Source: a bacterium
GTDB taxonomy: Bacteria; UBP15; UBA6099; DSWB01
DNA: 7,262 nucleotides
Reading direction: 5' to 3'
Assembly: GCA_020061125.1 (NCBI GenBank)
Contig: JAGUYV010000198.1
Coordinates: 1-7,262 of the forward strand
Below are positions 705-7,262 of the stretch, piece by piece. Each line of letters opens with the position of its first letter. The first letter of the stretch is position 1. The notes below the pieces were generated by a model that saw nothing but the letters and a program-made list of their open reading frames with translations, was not told the origin of the DNA and searched no databases. The position numbers and the translations under genes are program-made.

Positions 705-2504
705 ATGAGCGGCAGTAACGACGGATCCGTGAAAATAGAATTGTCAGGAGATGAAATGCAGGCGGTGGCCTTCATCATGCCTCCGGGCCTGGACGGCAGA
801 CCCATGGAAGTGGCGGATGTGAAGCGCGCGCTCAAGGAGGCCGGAGTGGTGAGCGGCATCGTGAACAACGAGCGCATCGCATCCTTTTGCGAAGAGGGCA
901 AGCTCGTGCCCGTGGATTTCCTGGCCGCAGCGGGCACGCAGCCCGGCGCGGGCGAGGATGCGTCCATCACCTACACCTGGCTCAAGGAAGACGCCAAAGC
1001 CCAGGACGATGTGTCCAAAATTGACTTTCGGGAGCTGAACCTGGTCAAGTCGGTCAGGGCCGGCGATGTGATTGCCGTGCGCAAGCCGCCTACGCGCGGC
1101 GCCGAGGGCGAAACCGTGACCGGCAAAAAAACGCCCGGCGAGTGGGGTTCGGACATCAGCGTCAAGCCCGGCGCCAATGTGACCTGCAACCCGGACAACA
1201 CGCAGTTCGTGGCCGCCATGGACGGTTCCCCGAAAATCGCGAACGGCGTGATCAGCGTGGACCCGGTGTACCGCATCCCCGGCGATGTGGATTACTCGAC
1301 CGGCAACATCAATTTCGCGGGCGCTCTGGAAATCAAGGGCAATGTGCAGGACGGGTTCGTGGTCAAGGCCGAGGGCAACATCAGCATCGGCGGCAATGTG
1401 CAGGCCGCGGAAGTCATCGCCGGCGGCGATGTGGCCGTGGCCGGGGGCATCATCACCCGCCACGAGGGGACTGTGTCCGCCCGAGGCTCGGTCTCCGCAA
1501 AGTTTATCGAGAACTCCGCGGTGGAAGCCGACGGGGATGTAATCGCGGACCGCGCCATCATCAACAGCAAGGTGCGCAGCAACAACCGCGTGATCTGCAC
1601 CTCGCGCGAGGGCAAAATCATGGGCGGCGACATCATGGCCTTCCACGAGATCAGGGCCAAGCATCTGGGCACGGACAAGGAAACCCTCACGGTGCTGCGC
1701 GCGGGCTTTAAGTTTGATGTGTTTCTCAAGCTCGCGGCACTGGAGGAAAAGCTCGTCAAGGTGCTGCAGGAGTCCGAAAGAATCCGCAAGAGCCTGGCGT
1801 CCGCCAAAACCGCACAGGGCGACGCCGTCATGAACCTCAAGAAGAACCTGGCGCAGCTCGACTCGCAGAAGCTGGCCATTCAGCAACACCTCGCCGCTCT
1901 GCGCGGCAAGGTGCAGGTCAACCCCTTCGCCACGGTCAAGGGCGAGGAGTTCATCCACCCGGGAACCCTCATTTACATTGGCGGAGCGCGCGAGCGCGTG
2001 GCCAAAGCCCTCAAGTTCGCCACCCTGTCCGCGGACAAGGAAGGCGGCATCGCTCTGTCCGCTTACGACGAGTTGTCCCGCTCCGTGAAAACAACCAGCG
2101 TTGGCACCAAGGAAAAACAGAAGACCGTGCTCATCGTGGACGACGCCAAATTTATGCGCAACAAGCTGCGCAACATCCTCGAGAACGCGAATTTCAAGGT
2201 CGTGGCCGAGGCCGAGGACGGCCGCGACGCCGTGGGCCTGTACAACAAGCACAAACCCGATGTGGTGACCATGGACATCACTATGCCCAATGTGGACGGC
2301 ATCACCTCCCTGCGCGCCATCAAGAAAATTGATCCCAAGGCCCGCGTGATCATGATCTCCGCCCTGGGCCAGAAGGACAAGGTCAAGGACAGCATCATCG
2401 CCGGCGCCATGGATTTCGTGATCAAGCCGTTCGTGCCGGAAAAAGTCGTGGAGATCATCTCACGCATCGCAAGCAAGGAAGACGGAAAGGAAGCAGCGCA
2501 ATGA
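705..2504 (+). CDS. fapA: FapA/DUF342 beta-helix polymer-type protein fused to a CheY-like receiver
   Basis: A protein of 599 residues. An N-terminal FapA/DUF342 region (about 1-180) is followed by Gly/Val-rich short beta-helix repeats (about 183-322), seen in phrases such as GNISIGGNVQ and GDVAVAGG. A long heptad-like Leu/Lys/Glu-rich coiled coil follows (about 341-405), then a short closing segment. This is the usual FapA plan, a family linked to polar flagella and cell-pole functions and structurally reminiscent of bactofilins. Unusually, it continues in frame into a full receiver (about 472-590) with acidic Asp479/Asp480, phosphoacceptor Asp524 in TMDITMP, Ser552 and Lys574 in IKPF. The 44-residue Asp480-Asp524 spacing equals CheY Asp13-Asp57. 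The start was chosen by the GGGAGG at 692-697; ATGs at 702 or 660 are alternatives. The stop overlaps the cheX start. The FapA assignment is firm; phosphorylation control of assembly is inference. Confidence 0.9.
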   Translation: MSGSNDGSVKIELSGDEMQAVAFIMPPGLDGRPMEVADVKRALKEAGVVSGIVNNERIASFCEEGKLVPVDFLAAAGTQPGAGEDASITYTWLKEDAKAQDDVSKIDFRELNLVKSVRAGDVIAVRKPPTRGAEGETVTGKKTPGEWGSDISVKPGANVTCNPDNTQFVAAMDGSPKIANGVISVDPVYRIPGDVDYSTGNINFAGALEIKGNVQDGFVVKAEGNISIGGNVQAAEVIAGGDVAVAGGIITRHEGTVSARGSVSAKFIENSAVEADGDVIADRAIINSKVRSNNRVICTSREGKIMGGDIMAFHEIRAKHLGTDKETLTVLRAGFKFDVFLKLAALEEKLVKVLQESERIRKSLASAKTAQGDAVMNLKKNLAQLDSQKLAIQQHLAALRGKVQVNPFATVKGEEFIHPGTLIYIGGARERVAKALKFATLSADKEGGIALSAYDELSRSVKTTSVGTKEKQKTVLIVDDAKFMRNKLRNILENANFKVVAEAEDGRDAVGLYNKHKPDVVTMDITMPNVDGITSLRAIKKIDPKARVIMISALGQKDKVKDSIIAGAMDFVIKPFVPEKVVEIISRIASKEDGKEAAQ

Positions 2505-3031
2505 AAGCCGAATACTTGAATCCATTTTTGAAATCCGTGGTGCAGATCGTGGAGAGCACGGCCGGAGAAACGCCGCAGCGCGGCAAGGTGTACCTGCGGG
2601 GCAAGTACCCCTTCGAATCCGCGGATGTGGCCATTATCGTGGGCATCACCGGAGTGCTCACCGGCCAGGTCATCCTGTCCATGACCATAGACGCCGCCAA
2701 GGGCATCGCCGCGCGCATGCTCATGGAAGACGAAGTGCCCGAACTCGACGAATACGCCCAGAGCGCCCTGGCCGAGATGGCCAACATGATCACGGCCAAC
2801 GCCACCATCGGCCTGGCCGACGCGGGCTTCAACTGCGACATCACCCCGCCCTCGGTTATCACAGGCTCACGCATCGAAATCTCCTGCCAGGAGGGCATCC
2901 AGACCCTGGTCATCCCCCTGGAACTGACCATGGGCAAACTGGATGTGAACCTGTCCATGATTGAAACCGCCATGTTCGCGGGCGTGAAAAAGAAAGTGCG
3001 CGGCGACGCCGCTGTGGAGCAGAAAGCGTAA
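2501..3031 (+). CDS. cheX: CheX-type phosphatase of a CheY-like receiver
   Basis: A cytoplasmic protein of 176 residues, slightly longer than typical CheX (about 155). CheX/CheC/FliY-family proteins speed dephosphorylation of CheY-P. The single active-site helix with the E-x2-N signature is visible as Glu92-Met-Ala-Asn95 in ALAEMANMI, as expected for CheX, whereas CheC usually has two such helices. Flanking segments GITGVLTGQVILSM and the C-terminal VIPLELTMGKLDVNLS fit the alternating-strand CheX fold. The ATG overlaps the fapA stop in ATGA (2501-2504), and an AAGGA at 2487-2491 lies 9 bases upstream, implying translational coupling to the FapA-receiver protein. The overlap makes that receiver a natural candidate substrate; the receiver encoded next is another. 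Which receiver it acts on is inference. Confidence 0.9.
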   Translation: MKAEYLNPFLKSVVQIVESTAGETPQRGKVYLRGKYPFESADVAIIVGITGVLTGQVILSMTIDAAKGIAARMLMEDEVPELDEYAQSALAEMANMITANATIGLADAGFNCDITPPSVITGSRIEISCQEGIQTLVIPLELTMGKLDVNLSMIETAMFAGVKKKVRGDAAVEQKA

Positions 3032-3050: not shown

Positions 3051-3710
3051 ATGCCGCCCGCGGATGATTGCGCTCAAAAAGGAATTGCCGGACCCGTGAA
3101 CGACCCCATCGAGAATAAAGTTGTCCGTTCCGTCAAAGTCTCTCTGGACAAAGCCGTGCCGGGCATGACCCTGGCCGAGGACCTGCGCAACGCAAGCGGC
3201 TCCGTGATGCTGCCTGCCGACACCGTGATCAAGCGCGAGCATATCAAAAACCTCGCCGAAAGCGGCGTCGAGCATCTGCGCATCGTCTCTTATTCGCCCC
3301 CAAAGGAATTTCATCCTCTGCGCGGCAAGACCGCAGTGGTGATTGACGACTCCCCGTTCATCCGCCACATGTTCGCGAAGCTGCTGTACCGAATGGGCGT
3401 GTTCGTGGCCGAGGAAGCAGAGACCGCGGAACTGGGCATGGCGGCCGCGCGCAAGTACAAACCCCACCTTATGATCATGGACATTTTCCTGCCTGGAATG
3501 GACGGCCTCACCGCCATCGCCAAACTCAAGCCCCTGCTGCCGGACACCCGGTTCCTGGTTGTGTCCACGCACAACAAAAAGGAATATATCATTAACGCGA
3601 TTAAGTCCGGGGCGCACGATTTCATGGCCAAGCCCATCCACTGGGAAGACCTCAAGCCGCGCGTGCTGCGCCTCATCGGCGAGCAGCCCGCGCCCGGCGA
3701 AAACCCGTAA
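3051..3710 (+). CDS. Response regulator: HD-GYP-associated-type N-terminal domain plus receiver, no output domain
   Basis: 219 residues from the ATG at 3051. Residues about 27-80 (VSLDKAVPGMTLAEDLRN, then SGSVMLPADTVIKREHIKNL) resemble the small domain that commonly precedes HD-GYP or HDOD domains (pattern: pGM.la.D, G..ll..gt.i...hi..L). Residues about 93-212 form a complete receiver: Asp99/Asp100, phosphoacceptor Asp144 in IMDIFLPGMDG, Ser172 and Lys194 in AKPIHW. No HD, GGDEF or DNA-binding domain follows, so it likely signals through protein contacts. It lies 19 bases after cheX and is probably in the same operon. The ATG at 3051 lacks a clear Shine-Dalgarno site. An in-frame GTG at 3096 (204 residues) has AAGGA at 3079-3083, 12 bases upstream, and begins just before the conserved part, so it is a credible alternative start. 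Not a gene I can name. Confidence 0.85.
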   Translation: MPPADDCAQKGIAGPVNDPIENKVVRSVKVSLDKAVPGMTLAEDLRNASGSVMLPADTVIKREHIKNLAESGVEHLRIVSYSPPKEFHPLRGKTAVVIDDSPFIRHMFAKLLYRMGVFVAEEAETAELGMAAARKYKPHLMIMDIFLPGMDGLTAIAKLKPLLPDTRFLVVSTHNKKEYIINAIKSGAHDFMAKPIHWEDLKPRVLRLIGEQPAPGENP

Positions 3711-3920: not shown

Positions 3921-6497
3921 ATGGATAATGAGAATCGGAACACAACGGGATATCTGGCCAGGCTGTTCGTTCCCGGCGGCGCTGTGTTCGCCTGCGCCAT
4001 CATCATTTATTTCGGGATCCTTTCGCACCACCGGTTCACGCGCCACTCGGTGAATCTGTTCCAGCAGACGCAGCTCACCGTGGCGTCCAGTGCGGCCCAG
4101 GGCGTGCACAGTCTGGTAAGCAACCTCGAGCGGCAACTCGACATACTAAGCCTGTCCAGCGATGTGCAGGACGACGGCAGCGTGGAATGCCGCACGGCCC
4201 TCAAGCAATTTTATTTCAGCAATAAGAATTATGTGTACGCCGGATACCGCATGAGCAGGGACAAGCGGCTCGTGCAGATGTTTCCCGCGGATCCCAATGC
4301 GCTGGGCCAGGACATCAGCCACCAGGACCATGTCAAGGAAATGTACCGCACCGGAAACAAAGTGGTGAGCGGCCGGTTCCATGCCCTTGAGGGCTTCGAT
4401 GCGGTGACCATCCATTACCCCGTGTACCGCAACCAGGAACTCAACGGGAGCGTGGCCACGCTGGTGCGCCTTTCGAGCATCGGCGAAACATTCATCCTGC
4501 CGATTCAGGAGCACAGCGACAGAGGAATCGGCTGGCTGGTGGACGACCAGGGGGTAATCGTGTCGCACCCGGACGCCTCGATGGTGGGAGAGCCGGTGGG
4601 CGGCGTGGAATTCCTTGGAGGCTCCGACCCCGAGGGTGATGCCGCGGAACTGGCTGCAACTCTGGCCAGAGGCAAAAAGGGCGCCGGACAATACGGCGAC
4701 ATGCTCGTGGCTTACGCGCCCGTGAAGATTGGGGAACGCACATGGAGCGTGGTCGTGTCCACGCCGTTCCAGGCCATCGCCGCGCCCCTGCGGCGCAACC
4801 TGTTCAACACCATCGGCTTCATGGCCCTTATCCTTCTCATGCTTGCGGGCGCCGCGTTCTGGCTCCTGCAAACCAACATGCGCGCCGCCAGCCTCGAAAA
4901 ATCACAGAGCCACCTGCAGGAAAAACTGGCTCTGCAGGAACAGCTCCGCGCCAGCCGCGACCACCTCGAAACCATCATCCGCACCATGCCCAGCGGCCTG
5001 TTCACCATAGACGCATCGCGCACCATCCTTTCCTGGAACGAAACCGCCGAACAGATTACAGGCTACAAAGCGGAAGAGGTTATCGGACGCAGTTGCAGCC
5101 TGTTCTACGACGACATGTGCGTCAAAGGCTGCGGCTTGTGGAATGAAGCCGTGCCCAAGCCCATCTCCGGCGCCGAGTGCGCTTTCCGCCGCAAGGACGG
5201 GCAGACCATCATCCTGTCGAAAAATGTGGATTTCATGCGCGACGCCCAGGGCAATGTCACCGGCGGCATCGAGAGCTTTATTGACATCACCCAGAGCCGT
5301 AAAGCCGAGGAGGCGCGCATCAACGCCCTGGCCCTGGAAAAGGAAGTCAAGCAACTGCGCCACATGGACGAAATCAAAACAAACTTTCTGTCCATGGTGT
5401 CCCACGAGCTGCGCACGCCCCTGTCCGTGATTCTCGGCAACCTCACCCTGGCGTTGCGCGGCCGGTTCGGCGAACTCCCCGGCCAGCTCTCCGACCGCCT
5501 TAACACAATCCAGAAACGCGCCCAGCAGCTCAACCGCCTCATCGAAAATCTGCTCAACCTCACCCGGCTCGAAACCGGAAAACTCGACATCCACAAGGAG
5601 CCTCTGGCCCTGCAGCCCCTCATTGAGGAAACCCTGCTCACCCTCAAATCCGATTACGAGGAAAAGAACATCTCTATGGTTCAGAATCTGGAACCCGAGG
5701 AGCCGGTGGTGTTCGCCGACGGAGGCCTGATTCAGCAGGTATTCACCAATGTGGTCGGCAACGCCATAAAATTCACCCCGGACAACGGGACCATCACCAT
5801 CTCCACGCGCCCGCTGACCGGTGCGCTGGAAATTCGAGTCCGGGACACCGGCGTGGGCATTCCCGAAGACGCGCTCCCCAGGGTGTTCGACCGGTTTTTC
5901 CAGGCCGACAATTCCCCCACGCGCGCATTCGGCGGCACGGGACTGGGCCTGTCCATCGTCAAGGAAATCATCGGCATGCACAAGGGCGAAATCAGCATCA
6001 GCAGCCGCGAGTGCGAATACACCGAAGTCGCGTTCACACTCCCCATGCCCGGAGGCCTAGTCAGCGCAGAGGGCGGTTCCGATCCGGCCGCTCCCGAAGC
6101 CTCCAGTGAATCCGAACCGGCCGCGGCCGGGCCGTCGCGCAAAATCCTCATCGTGGACGACGACATGGATTTTCTCAACCTCACCTGCGACATGTTCAGC
6201 GGCACGAGCCACAAGATTCTTTCCGCGCCCAGCACCATCGAGGGCCTCGATCTGCTCAAGAATGAGAAGCCGGATGTGATTCTTCTGGATCTCATGATGG
6301 CTGGCCGCGACGGATACTTTTTCCTGAAAATCGTACAGGCGGACGAGACCACGCGCAGAATTCCCGTGATCGTGCTCTCGGCGTCCATTGACGAAAAGCA
6401 CCGCAGCAAAGCCAAACAGTTCGGGGCCGCCGCATACCTCACCAAGCCCGTTTCCCAGCAGGATCTCCTCGAAGAAATCGAAAAGCTGCTGCCGTGA
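3921..6497 (+). CDS. Membrane hybrid sensor histidine kinase (dCache-like - PAS - HisKA - HATPase - receiver)
   Basis: 858 residues. TM1 is about 15-34 and TM2 about 295-316, enclosing a roughly 260-residue extracytoplasmic domain of double-Cache type (YVYAGYRMSRDK, LVDDQGVIVSHPD). After a coiled-coil linker comes a PAS domain (about 349-460) with Cys392, Cys400, Cys404 and Cys420. HisKA carries phosphoacceptor His495 in MVSHELRTPL. The ATPase shows Asn614 (NVVGNAIKF), Asp642 (DTGVGIP) and GGTGLGLSI at 671-679. An Ala/Pro/Ser-rich linker (about 710-742) leads to a receiver with Asp746/Asp747, Asp790, Ser820 and Lys842. All catalytic residues are present, so it should sense an extracytoplasmic ligand and pass phosphate His to Asp and probably onward to a separate protein. 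The receiver has Ala794 (LDLMMAGRDGY) where Pro is usual. ATG 3921 is the first possible start in frame but has no Shine-Dalgarno site. The ligand is unknown. Confidence 0.93.
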   Translation: MDNENRNTTGYLARLFVPGGAVFACAIIIYFGILSHHRFTRHSVNLFQQTQLTVASSAAQGVHSLVSNLERQLDILSLSSDVQDDGSVECRTALKQFYFSNKNYVYAGYRMSRDKRLVQMFPADPNALGQDISHQDHVKEMYRTGNKVVSGRFHALEGFDAVTIHYPVYRNQELNGSVATLVRLSSIGETFILPIQEHSDRGIGWLVDDQGVIVSHPDASMVGEPVGGVEFLGGSDPEGDAAELAATLARGKKGAGQYGDMLVAYAPVKIGERTWSVVVSTPFQAIAAPLRRNLFNTIGFMALILLMLAGAAFWLLQTNMRAASLEKSQSHLQEKLALQEQLRASRDHLETIIRTMPSGLFTIDASRTILSWNETAEQITGYKAEEVIGRSCSLFYDDMCVKGCGLWNEAVPKPISGAECAFRRKDGQTIILSKNVDFMRDAQGNVTGGIESFIDITQSRKAEEARINALALEKEVKQLRHMDEIKTNFLSMVSHELRTPLSVILGNLTLALRGRFGELPGQLSDRLNTIQKRAQQLNRLIENLLNLTRLETGKLDIHKEPLALQPLIEETLLTLKSDYEEKNISMVQNLEPEEPVVFADGGLIQQVFTNVVGNAIKFTPDNGTITISTRPLTGALEIRVRDTGVGIPEDALPRVFDRFFQADNSPTRAFGGTGLGLSIVKEIIGMHKGEISISSRECEYTEVAFTLPMPGGLVSAEGGSDPAAPEASSESEPAAAGPSRKILIVDDDMDFLNLTCDMFSGTSHKILSAPSTIEGLDLLKNEKPDVILLDLMMAGRDGYFFLKIVQADETTRRIPVIVLSASIDEKHRSKAKQFGAAAYLTKPVSQQDLLEEIEKLLP

Positions 6498-6574: not shown

Positions 6575-7261
6575 TCACGCCCAGCGGCGGCGCCACTGGC
6601 AGAACACGAACAAGTTCCACAGTTTTTTATGCTGGTCTTCGCGGCCTGCGGCGTGCGCGTCCAGGATGCGCCGCACGGCCGCGGGATTGAACAGGCCCTG
6701 CTCTTTGAGGCTGCGCTCCGACAGTGCATCGCGAAACTCGTCCAGCAGGTCTTCTTTAATCCACGCGGTCACGGGAATGCCGAACCCTTTCTTTGGCCGT
6801 TTGAGCACGAACTCCGGAATCAGCGGCGCCGCAGCTTTCCGCAGGATGTATTTGGTGGTCCAGCCCTTGAGCTTGAGGGCCGTCGGCAGGCGCGACGCGA
6901 ATTCCACGATCCGGTAGTCCAGGAACGGCGTGCGCGCTTCCAGGGAGTGCATCATGGACGCGCGGTCCACTTTTGTCATCAAGTCTTCGCCCAGATAAAA
7001 GCGCAGGTCCGTGAACATGGCGATGTCCAGGTCCGCCCACTTTTCGCGCACCGCGCCCAGGGCCGCGCGCGCCGGCTCGAAGATGTCCTGGTCTCTGACC
7101 GCATGCAGGAACTCCGGGGAAAGAAACTCCGCGCGCTCGTGCGGGGCCATGGGGCCGAGCCACACGAGCTGCCGCTCCAGGGGCGGGTACTGCGCGCCCT
7201 CGGCGAACTTGATGAACTTGAACGGCAGGTTCATGTTTTTCTCGGACGCCGGCAGCATGCG
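6575..7261 (-). CDS. asnB: Asparagine synthetase (glutamine-hydrolysing) AsnB type, C-terminal part
   Basis: About 229 residues of the synthetase domain, reading leftward and open through the right edge; the full enzyme is usually near 600 residues, so most of it lies outside the window. AsnB converts aspartate, ATP and glutamine to asparagine in the cytoplasm; paralogues serve in exopolysaccharide and surface-glycan clusters. Visible family signatures are YLGEDLMTKVDRASMMHSLE followed by ARTPFLDYRIVEFASRLP, then LKLKGWTTKYILRKA, then VLKRPKKGFGIPVTAWI, and a C-terminal HKKLWNLFVFCQWRR. The methionine at 7258 is internal, not a start, because the reading frame continues to the edge. It converges on the kinase gene with a 77-base gap and has no evident functional link to the signalling genes. 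Housekeeping versus glycan-cluster role cannot be decided from this fragment. Confidence 0.9.
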   Translation of the reverse strand, partial: RMLPASEKNMNLPFKFIKFAEGAQYPPLERQLVWLGPMAPHERAEFLSPEFLHAVRDQDIFEPARAALGAVREKWADLDIAMFTDLRFYLGEDLMTKVDRASMMHSLEARTPFLDYRIVEFASRLPTALKLKGWTTKYILRKAAAPLIPEFVLKRPKKGFGIPVTAWIKEDLLDEFRDALSERSLKEQGLFNPAAVRRILDAHAAGREDQHKKLWNLFVFCQWRRRWA

Positions 7262-7262
7262 C

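Follow-up and report, generated by a model that had tools for sequence, protein, structure and literature searches.

The bacterial DNA studied here encodes a FapA protein that continues in frame into a CheY-type receiver (FapA-REC, 599 aa), and this fusion is real, conserved and restricted to one lineage. FapA-REC carries a CheY-type receiver and is not a classical CheY: its receiver is fused to FapA instead of forming a single-domain protein. Its parts, active-site residues, synteny and phylogenetic placement are established at the level of sequence, and we see roughly an even chance that it is the response regulator of a complete CheA/MCP chemosensory system, tethered to FapA and acting near the motor. 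Descriptions of CheY usually make it a messenger that diffuses freely between the receptor array and the motor. If our reading is true, the chemotaxis signal in this little-studied, flagellated group may be kept at the flagellum rather than left to diffuse, and a lineage whose only Thermotoga maritima-type CheY is fused to FapA would test the need for diffusion. FapA-REC is a variant of the CheY and FapA kinds that comes with a directly testable idea, and it would provide a tangible way into what FapA does biochemically, a poorly understood matter in a widespread family.

The fusion and its distribution

The window, that is, the whole stretch of 7,262 nt that was analysed, is the entire contig C89 of a MAG in 513 contigs. 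The gene for FapA-REC (705-2504, forward strand, as are all its parts) is a single open frame of 599 codons with no internal stop, whose candidate start codons are the ATGs at 702 and 705, with GGGAGG upstream at 692-697; its orthologues are 63-67% identical over their full length. The protein begins with a FapA_N domain (residues 9-180, positions 729-1244; Pfam PF20250, E 5e-37), followed by the FapA beta-solenoid (residues 187-445, positions 1263-2039; Pfam PF03961, E 2e-62), and the two reach 127 and 212 bits against gathering cut-offs of 27 and 31, respectively, which places the protein in the FapA family. A low-confidence linker (residues about 459-471, positions 2079-2117; pLDDT below 50 at 459-462 and 465-471), probably flexible judging from the model, leads to the CheY-type receiver (residues 475-585, positions 2127-2459; Pfam PF00072 Response_reg, E 6e-30). 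The active site of the receiver is complete, with Asp479, Asp480, the phospho-acceptor Asp524, Ser552 and Lys574, and these five residues are invariant in an alignment of 14 FapA-REC proteins of the order. The preliminary description had FapA running in frame into a receiver with all phosphorylation residues intact, and the open frame, the Pfam domains and this alignment bear it out on both points.

The fragmentation of the source MAG could speak for an assembly or frameshift error that merged two adjacent genes, a reading to which we give next to no credence and which we reject, since a scan of genome contigs (genome_contigs) found the same junction, in one frame, at 13 further loci in six independent candidate-phylum MAGs of UBP15 type, with two to three paralogues per genome. 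Of the six other genomes in the order, five have full-length copies, two or three apiece in several; in G005 the copy is cut by a contig end. The earlier opinion that the fusion is no assembly artefact, formed on one uninterrupted junction, now extends to these 13 independent loci. Two outcomes had been named beforehand as speaking against the description, namely parts that are always separate genes and a receiver that cannot be phosphorylated, and within the order we found neither.

Many FapA proteins are present in the genomes that we surveyed, 386 domain-wide (the seven of the order included) and 247 from the G309 phylum, which groups with spirochaetes (633 in total). Among the matches listed, alignments covering both FapA and receiver were found nowhere outside the order in the first set, and none was found in the second. 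On these listed matches, which make a strong though not exhaustive case, we reject the idea of a fusion that is widespread in bacteria, and the architecture proves to be as unusual as first described. The 60 other loci of the genome_contigs pattern scan, which was built on subfamily motifs that a very divergent receiver could escape, likewise gave no FapA and receiver in one frame. Apparent fusions in Clostridia and Aquabacterium (L079, L102, L104, L107, L110, L115 and L121) turned out to be separate adjoining genes. We found no paper on a FapA/DUF342-receiver fusion, subscription papers and InterPro architecture lists lying outside the scope of the literature search. Long FapA proteins with Jag_N upstream of FapA_N were also seen (L118:7057-10452, L126:1561-4503 and L137:1189-3663), that of L118 with a weak MinC_C match.

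A single ancient fusion is likely, because the FapA parts of 13 fusions form one clade (SH-aLRT 99 in a quick tree), apart from the other FapA paralogues of the order. The fused receivers group in a single clade together with the plain CheY of the order and T. maritima CheY (support 97/84), while the second CheY of the operons and the CheB receivers fall outside it; within the clade, branching among the fused receivers is a polytomy that includes plain CheY, with too few columns to order events. The simplest reading of these trees would be that a single fusion arose and later duplicated, giving a chemosensory subfamily, to which the 599-aa protein belongs, and a second subfamily. Members of the latter are 38-39% identical to the former and sit away from che operons, with an Hpt gene close by in the source genome and GAF-HD-GYP genes close by in the relatives scanned, and the fusion is therefore not tied to CheA everywhere. 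The Hpt-domain gene (L002:1132-1488, reverse strand) lies directly 3' of the second FapA-REC of the source genome, a position that suggests the Hpt protein as a phosphodonor for the second subfamily. A 425-aa open frame with three tandem receivers, related to the CheY clade, was noted in G000 (C433, L176).

Gene neighbourhood and che operons

The start of cheX (2501-3031, forward) overlaps the stop of fapA-rec by 4 bases (ATGA, 2501-2504). Its product belongs to the CheY-P phosphatase family (Pfam CheX, 3e-21; 75.9 bits against a gathering cut-off of 27), and its best PDB match is CheX from the Borrelia CheX-CheY complex 3hzh (3e-15), the alignment to 3hzh_B spanning the region of the E..N motif. 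Whether the fusion recurs beside cheX was a check proposed at the outset, and cheX is indeed the next gene in all eight loci of the chemosensory subfamily. Upstream, the window opens on a CheB methylesterase domain (1-610, forward) whose N-terminal receiver was probably lost at the contig end. A catalytic-only CheB was considered as a novelty and rejected, since the contig end cuts the gene and, in relatives, CheB is a REC-CheB of 345 aa that shares the linker (...MTRTTEK.VAIGAS). Downstream of cheX lies a second receiver protein (3051-3710, forward), conserved in that position in relatives, with an N-terminal extension of about 90 aa that we take to resemble the PGM...D..G..L segment of HD-GYP proteins. 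It is followed by a hybrid histidine kinase (3921-6497, forward; dCache-PAS-HisKA-HATPase-REC) that is not kept at this place in relatives and is a possible extra phosphodonor for FapA-REC, or could itself be the donor. The window ends in the C-terminal part of an asparagine-synthase-like amidotransferase (6575-7262, reverse), the nearest model being the XrtA/PEP-CTERM amidotransferase, under its cut-off.

Two relatives place the fusion in a chemosensory operon. The order of genes is CheA, MCP, CheR, CheD, CheY, CheX, FapA-REC, CheX, hemerythrin, HD-GYP and receiver protein in L038, and MCP, CheR, CheD, CheY, CheX, CheB, FapA-REC, CheX and receiver protein in L041. Our contig is the tail of an operon of the L041 type, with CheB cut by the contig start; the CheA of this operon lies off the contig and is deduced from the relatives. 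The chemotaxis-type control proposed in the preliminary description is thus upheld by the full che operons of relatives. In G001, a REC-histidine kinase gene (L037:10389-11600, reverse) stands between cheB and fapA-rec.

A paralogous operon of the source genome (contig C178) reads CheA...MCP-CheR-CheD-CheY-CheX-CheB-CheY-HD, where CheR, CheD and the HD-type protein were assigned by reading the sequences. Its last CheY is a plain protein of 124 aa, 65% identical to the fused receiver, and it occupies the slot of FapA-REC, which therefore stands at the place of a CheY. Within the order this plain form is found only in G000, with a weaker match of 138 aa in G001; in G002, G003, G004 and G006 a plain-CheY query matches FapA fusions only at E<=1e-20, the completeness of G002 and G003 being 97% and 92%.

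Possible roles: a tethered CheY or a switched scaffold

The best PDB match of the receiver is T. maritima CheY (5e-35), and it also matches 4iga, a structure with the FliM N-terminus; its model superposes on T. maritima CheY with a Z of 24.2 and an rmsd of 0.8 over 118 residues. Between the fused receiver and the free CheY the alpha4 helix is 82% identical, against 65% overall. FliG and FliM are encoded in all seven genomes of the order, and the FliM N-terminus carries the motif LSQ.AIDDLI in the six relatives inspected, and this motif resembles the CheY-binding peptide of classical FliM. The receiver belongs to the type of T. maritima CheY, of which it is the sole representative in most relatives; a motor-facing, tethered CheY would therefore be no less likely than a switched scaffold.

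The FapA part was modelled with AlphaFold over 455 residues (pLDDT 91) as an N-terminal domain plus a beta-solenoid into which an antiparallel helical hairpin (residues 337-402) is inserted; the polymer-type character given to this part in the preliminary description was a supposition. Foldseek returned no match under 1e-3 for this part, and no solved FapA structure was detectable by sequence search. VIA aligned it with a beta-helical antifreeze protein (Z 14.3, rmsd 2.4, 168 residues aligned), and residues 272-455 with T. maritima MinC (Z 10.0, rmsd 2.2, 102 aligned). A separate, canonical FapA is encoded in the flagellar cluster, beside genes for the sigma factor FliA, an FlhG-like protein, FlhF, FlhA and FlhB, and FapA-REC is therefore an extra paralogue and not the housekeeping FapA. 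FlhF scores over the cut-off in six of the seven genomes; the HubP/FimV C-terminal domain (TIGR03504) gave no match over the cut-off in these seven, nor in any control genome, and recruitment by HubP would be hypothetical in the order. Vibrio FapA takes part in flagellar assembly and is brought to the pole by HubP (PMC12918733); it binds EIIAGlc only when the latter is unphosphorylated (PMC6877527). By analogy with this protein we infer that FapA-REC may act at the flagellar pole or base.

In the mechanism that we propose, CheA, together with MCPs, would phosphorylate Asp524, and the neighbouring CheX would strip the phosphate from it. Like Vibrio FapA, the FapA part would dock at the flagellar pole or in the basal region, and docking would concentrate the phosphorylated receiver beside the motor, where it could bind the LSQ.AIDDLI N-terminus of FliM, alter the contacts made by the FapA part to which it is fused, or both. 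A broader claim, that a CheY covalently anchored to a flagellar or polar FapA scaffold, localised, non-diffusing and reset by the adjoining CheX, has for the most part taken the place of the diffusible motor CheY in the order, we advance only tentatively.

The strongest alternative is that FapA is the true output, with phosphorylation of the receiver changing how FapA assembles with itself, where it localises or what it binds, and thereby adjusting flagellar assembly or placement instead of motor switching. This is the usual logic of fusions between a receiver and an effector, and it finds an echo in the interaction of Vibrio FapA, which depends on the phosphorylation state of its partner (PMC6877527). 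The second subfamily, outside che operons, fits an effector under varied donors, and the che operons encode a second CheY-like protein that could be the motor-binding CheY and would be free to serve the motor. However, the order keeps its separate canonical FapA by FliA, FlhG, FlhF, FlhA and FlhB, the fused receiver resembles CheY down to a conserved output face and is the sole CheY of its type in four genomes (E<=1e-20), and polymerisation of FapA is itself no more than a candidate property. A switch of polymerisation by phosphorylation, as suggested in the preliminary description, is a speculative possibility. On balance we hold this alternative to be a minority prospect, though a serious one. 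Further down the scale, we find it improbable that FapA-REC serves a non-flagellar output (c-di-GMP, surface polysaccharide or pili, for instance) or provides the other CheY with a localised phosphate sink. The HD-GYP genes near several copies, the hemerythrin gene, and the fact that each operon has two CheX and also two CheY-type receivers would suit such roles, but FapA is flagellar where studied (PMC6877527, PMC12918733), and flagellar motor genes are found in all genomes of the order.

Comparison with known systems

Among the closest counterparts of the tethered response regulator that we favour is T. maritima CheY (PDB 1tmy, 4iga, 4qyw), to which the fused receiver is about 51% identical, with the same active-site residues and a deviation of 0.8 A over 118 residues; the Thermotoga protein, however, is free and 120 aa long, whereas the fused receiver forms the C-terminal end of a FapA protein of 599 aa. 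The CheX-CheY pairs of Thermotoga and Borrelia resemble our locus in that cheX lies directly beside the gene of a CheY-type receiver, and differ from it in that the CheY partner here carries FapA. In Lachnospiraceae and Oscillospiraceae (L104, L107, L110 and L121) a FapA gene is followed on one strand by a gene for a CheY-like receiver, as it is, less tightly, in L079 and L102; in these bacteria, unlike ours, the two are separate genes and the receivers form their own clade. Such an independent pairing in Clostridia speaks for a functional connection of FapA with CheY-like receivers. In L079, from a Lachnospiraceae MAG, the gene directly after that of FapA (8878-11856) encodes a CheY-like receiver and, after it, pyridine nucleotide-disulphide oxidoreductase, rhodanese and nitrite/sulphite reductase domains.

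To our knowledge, Vibrio FapA has not been described as carrying a receiver. The FapA of V. vulnificus and V. cholerae belongs by name to the same family, is a polar protein of flagellar assembly and binds in a manner that depends on the phosphorylation of its partner (PMC6877527, PMC12918733), yet its control goes through HubP and a separate PTS protein, EIIAGlc, whereas FapA-REC has a built-in phospho-acceptor domain and adjoins cheX. Finally, the Cle proteins of Caulobacter share with FapA-REC the addition of a module to a CheY-like receiver, a module that in Cle changes the action of the receiver at the flagellar motor (PMC5677366); in Cle this is a short, arginine-rich, c-di-GMP-binding extension at the C-terminus, while in FapA-REC it is a FapA part of 455 aa at the N-terminus.
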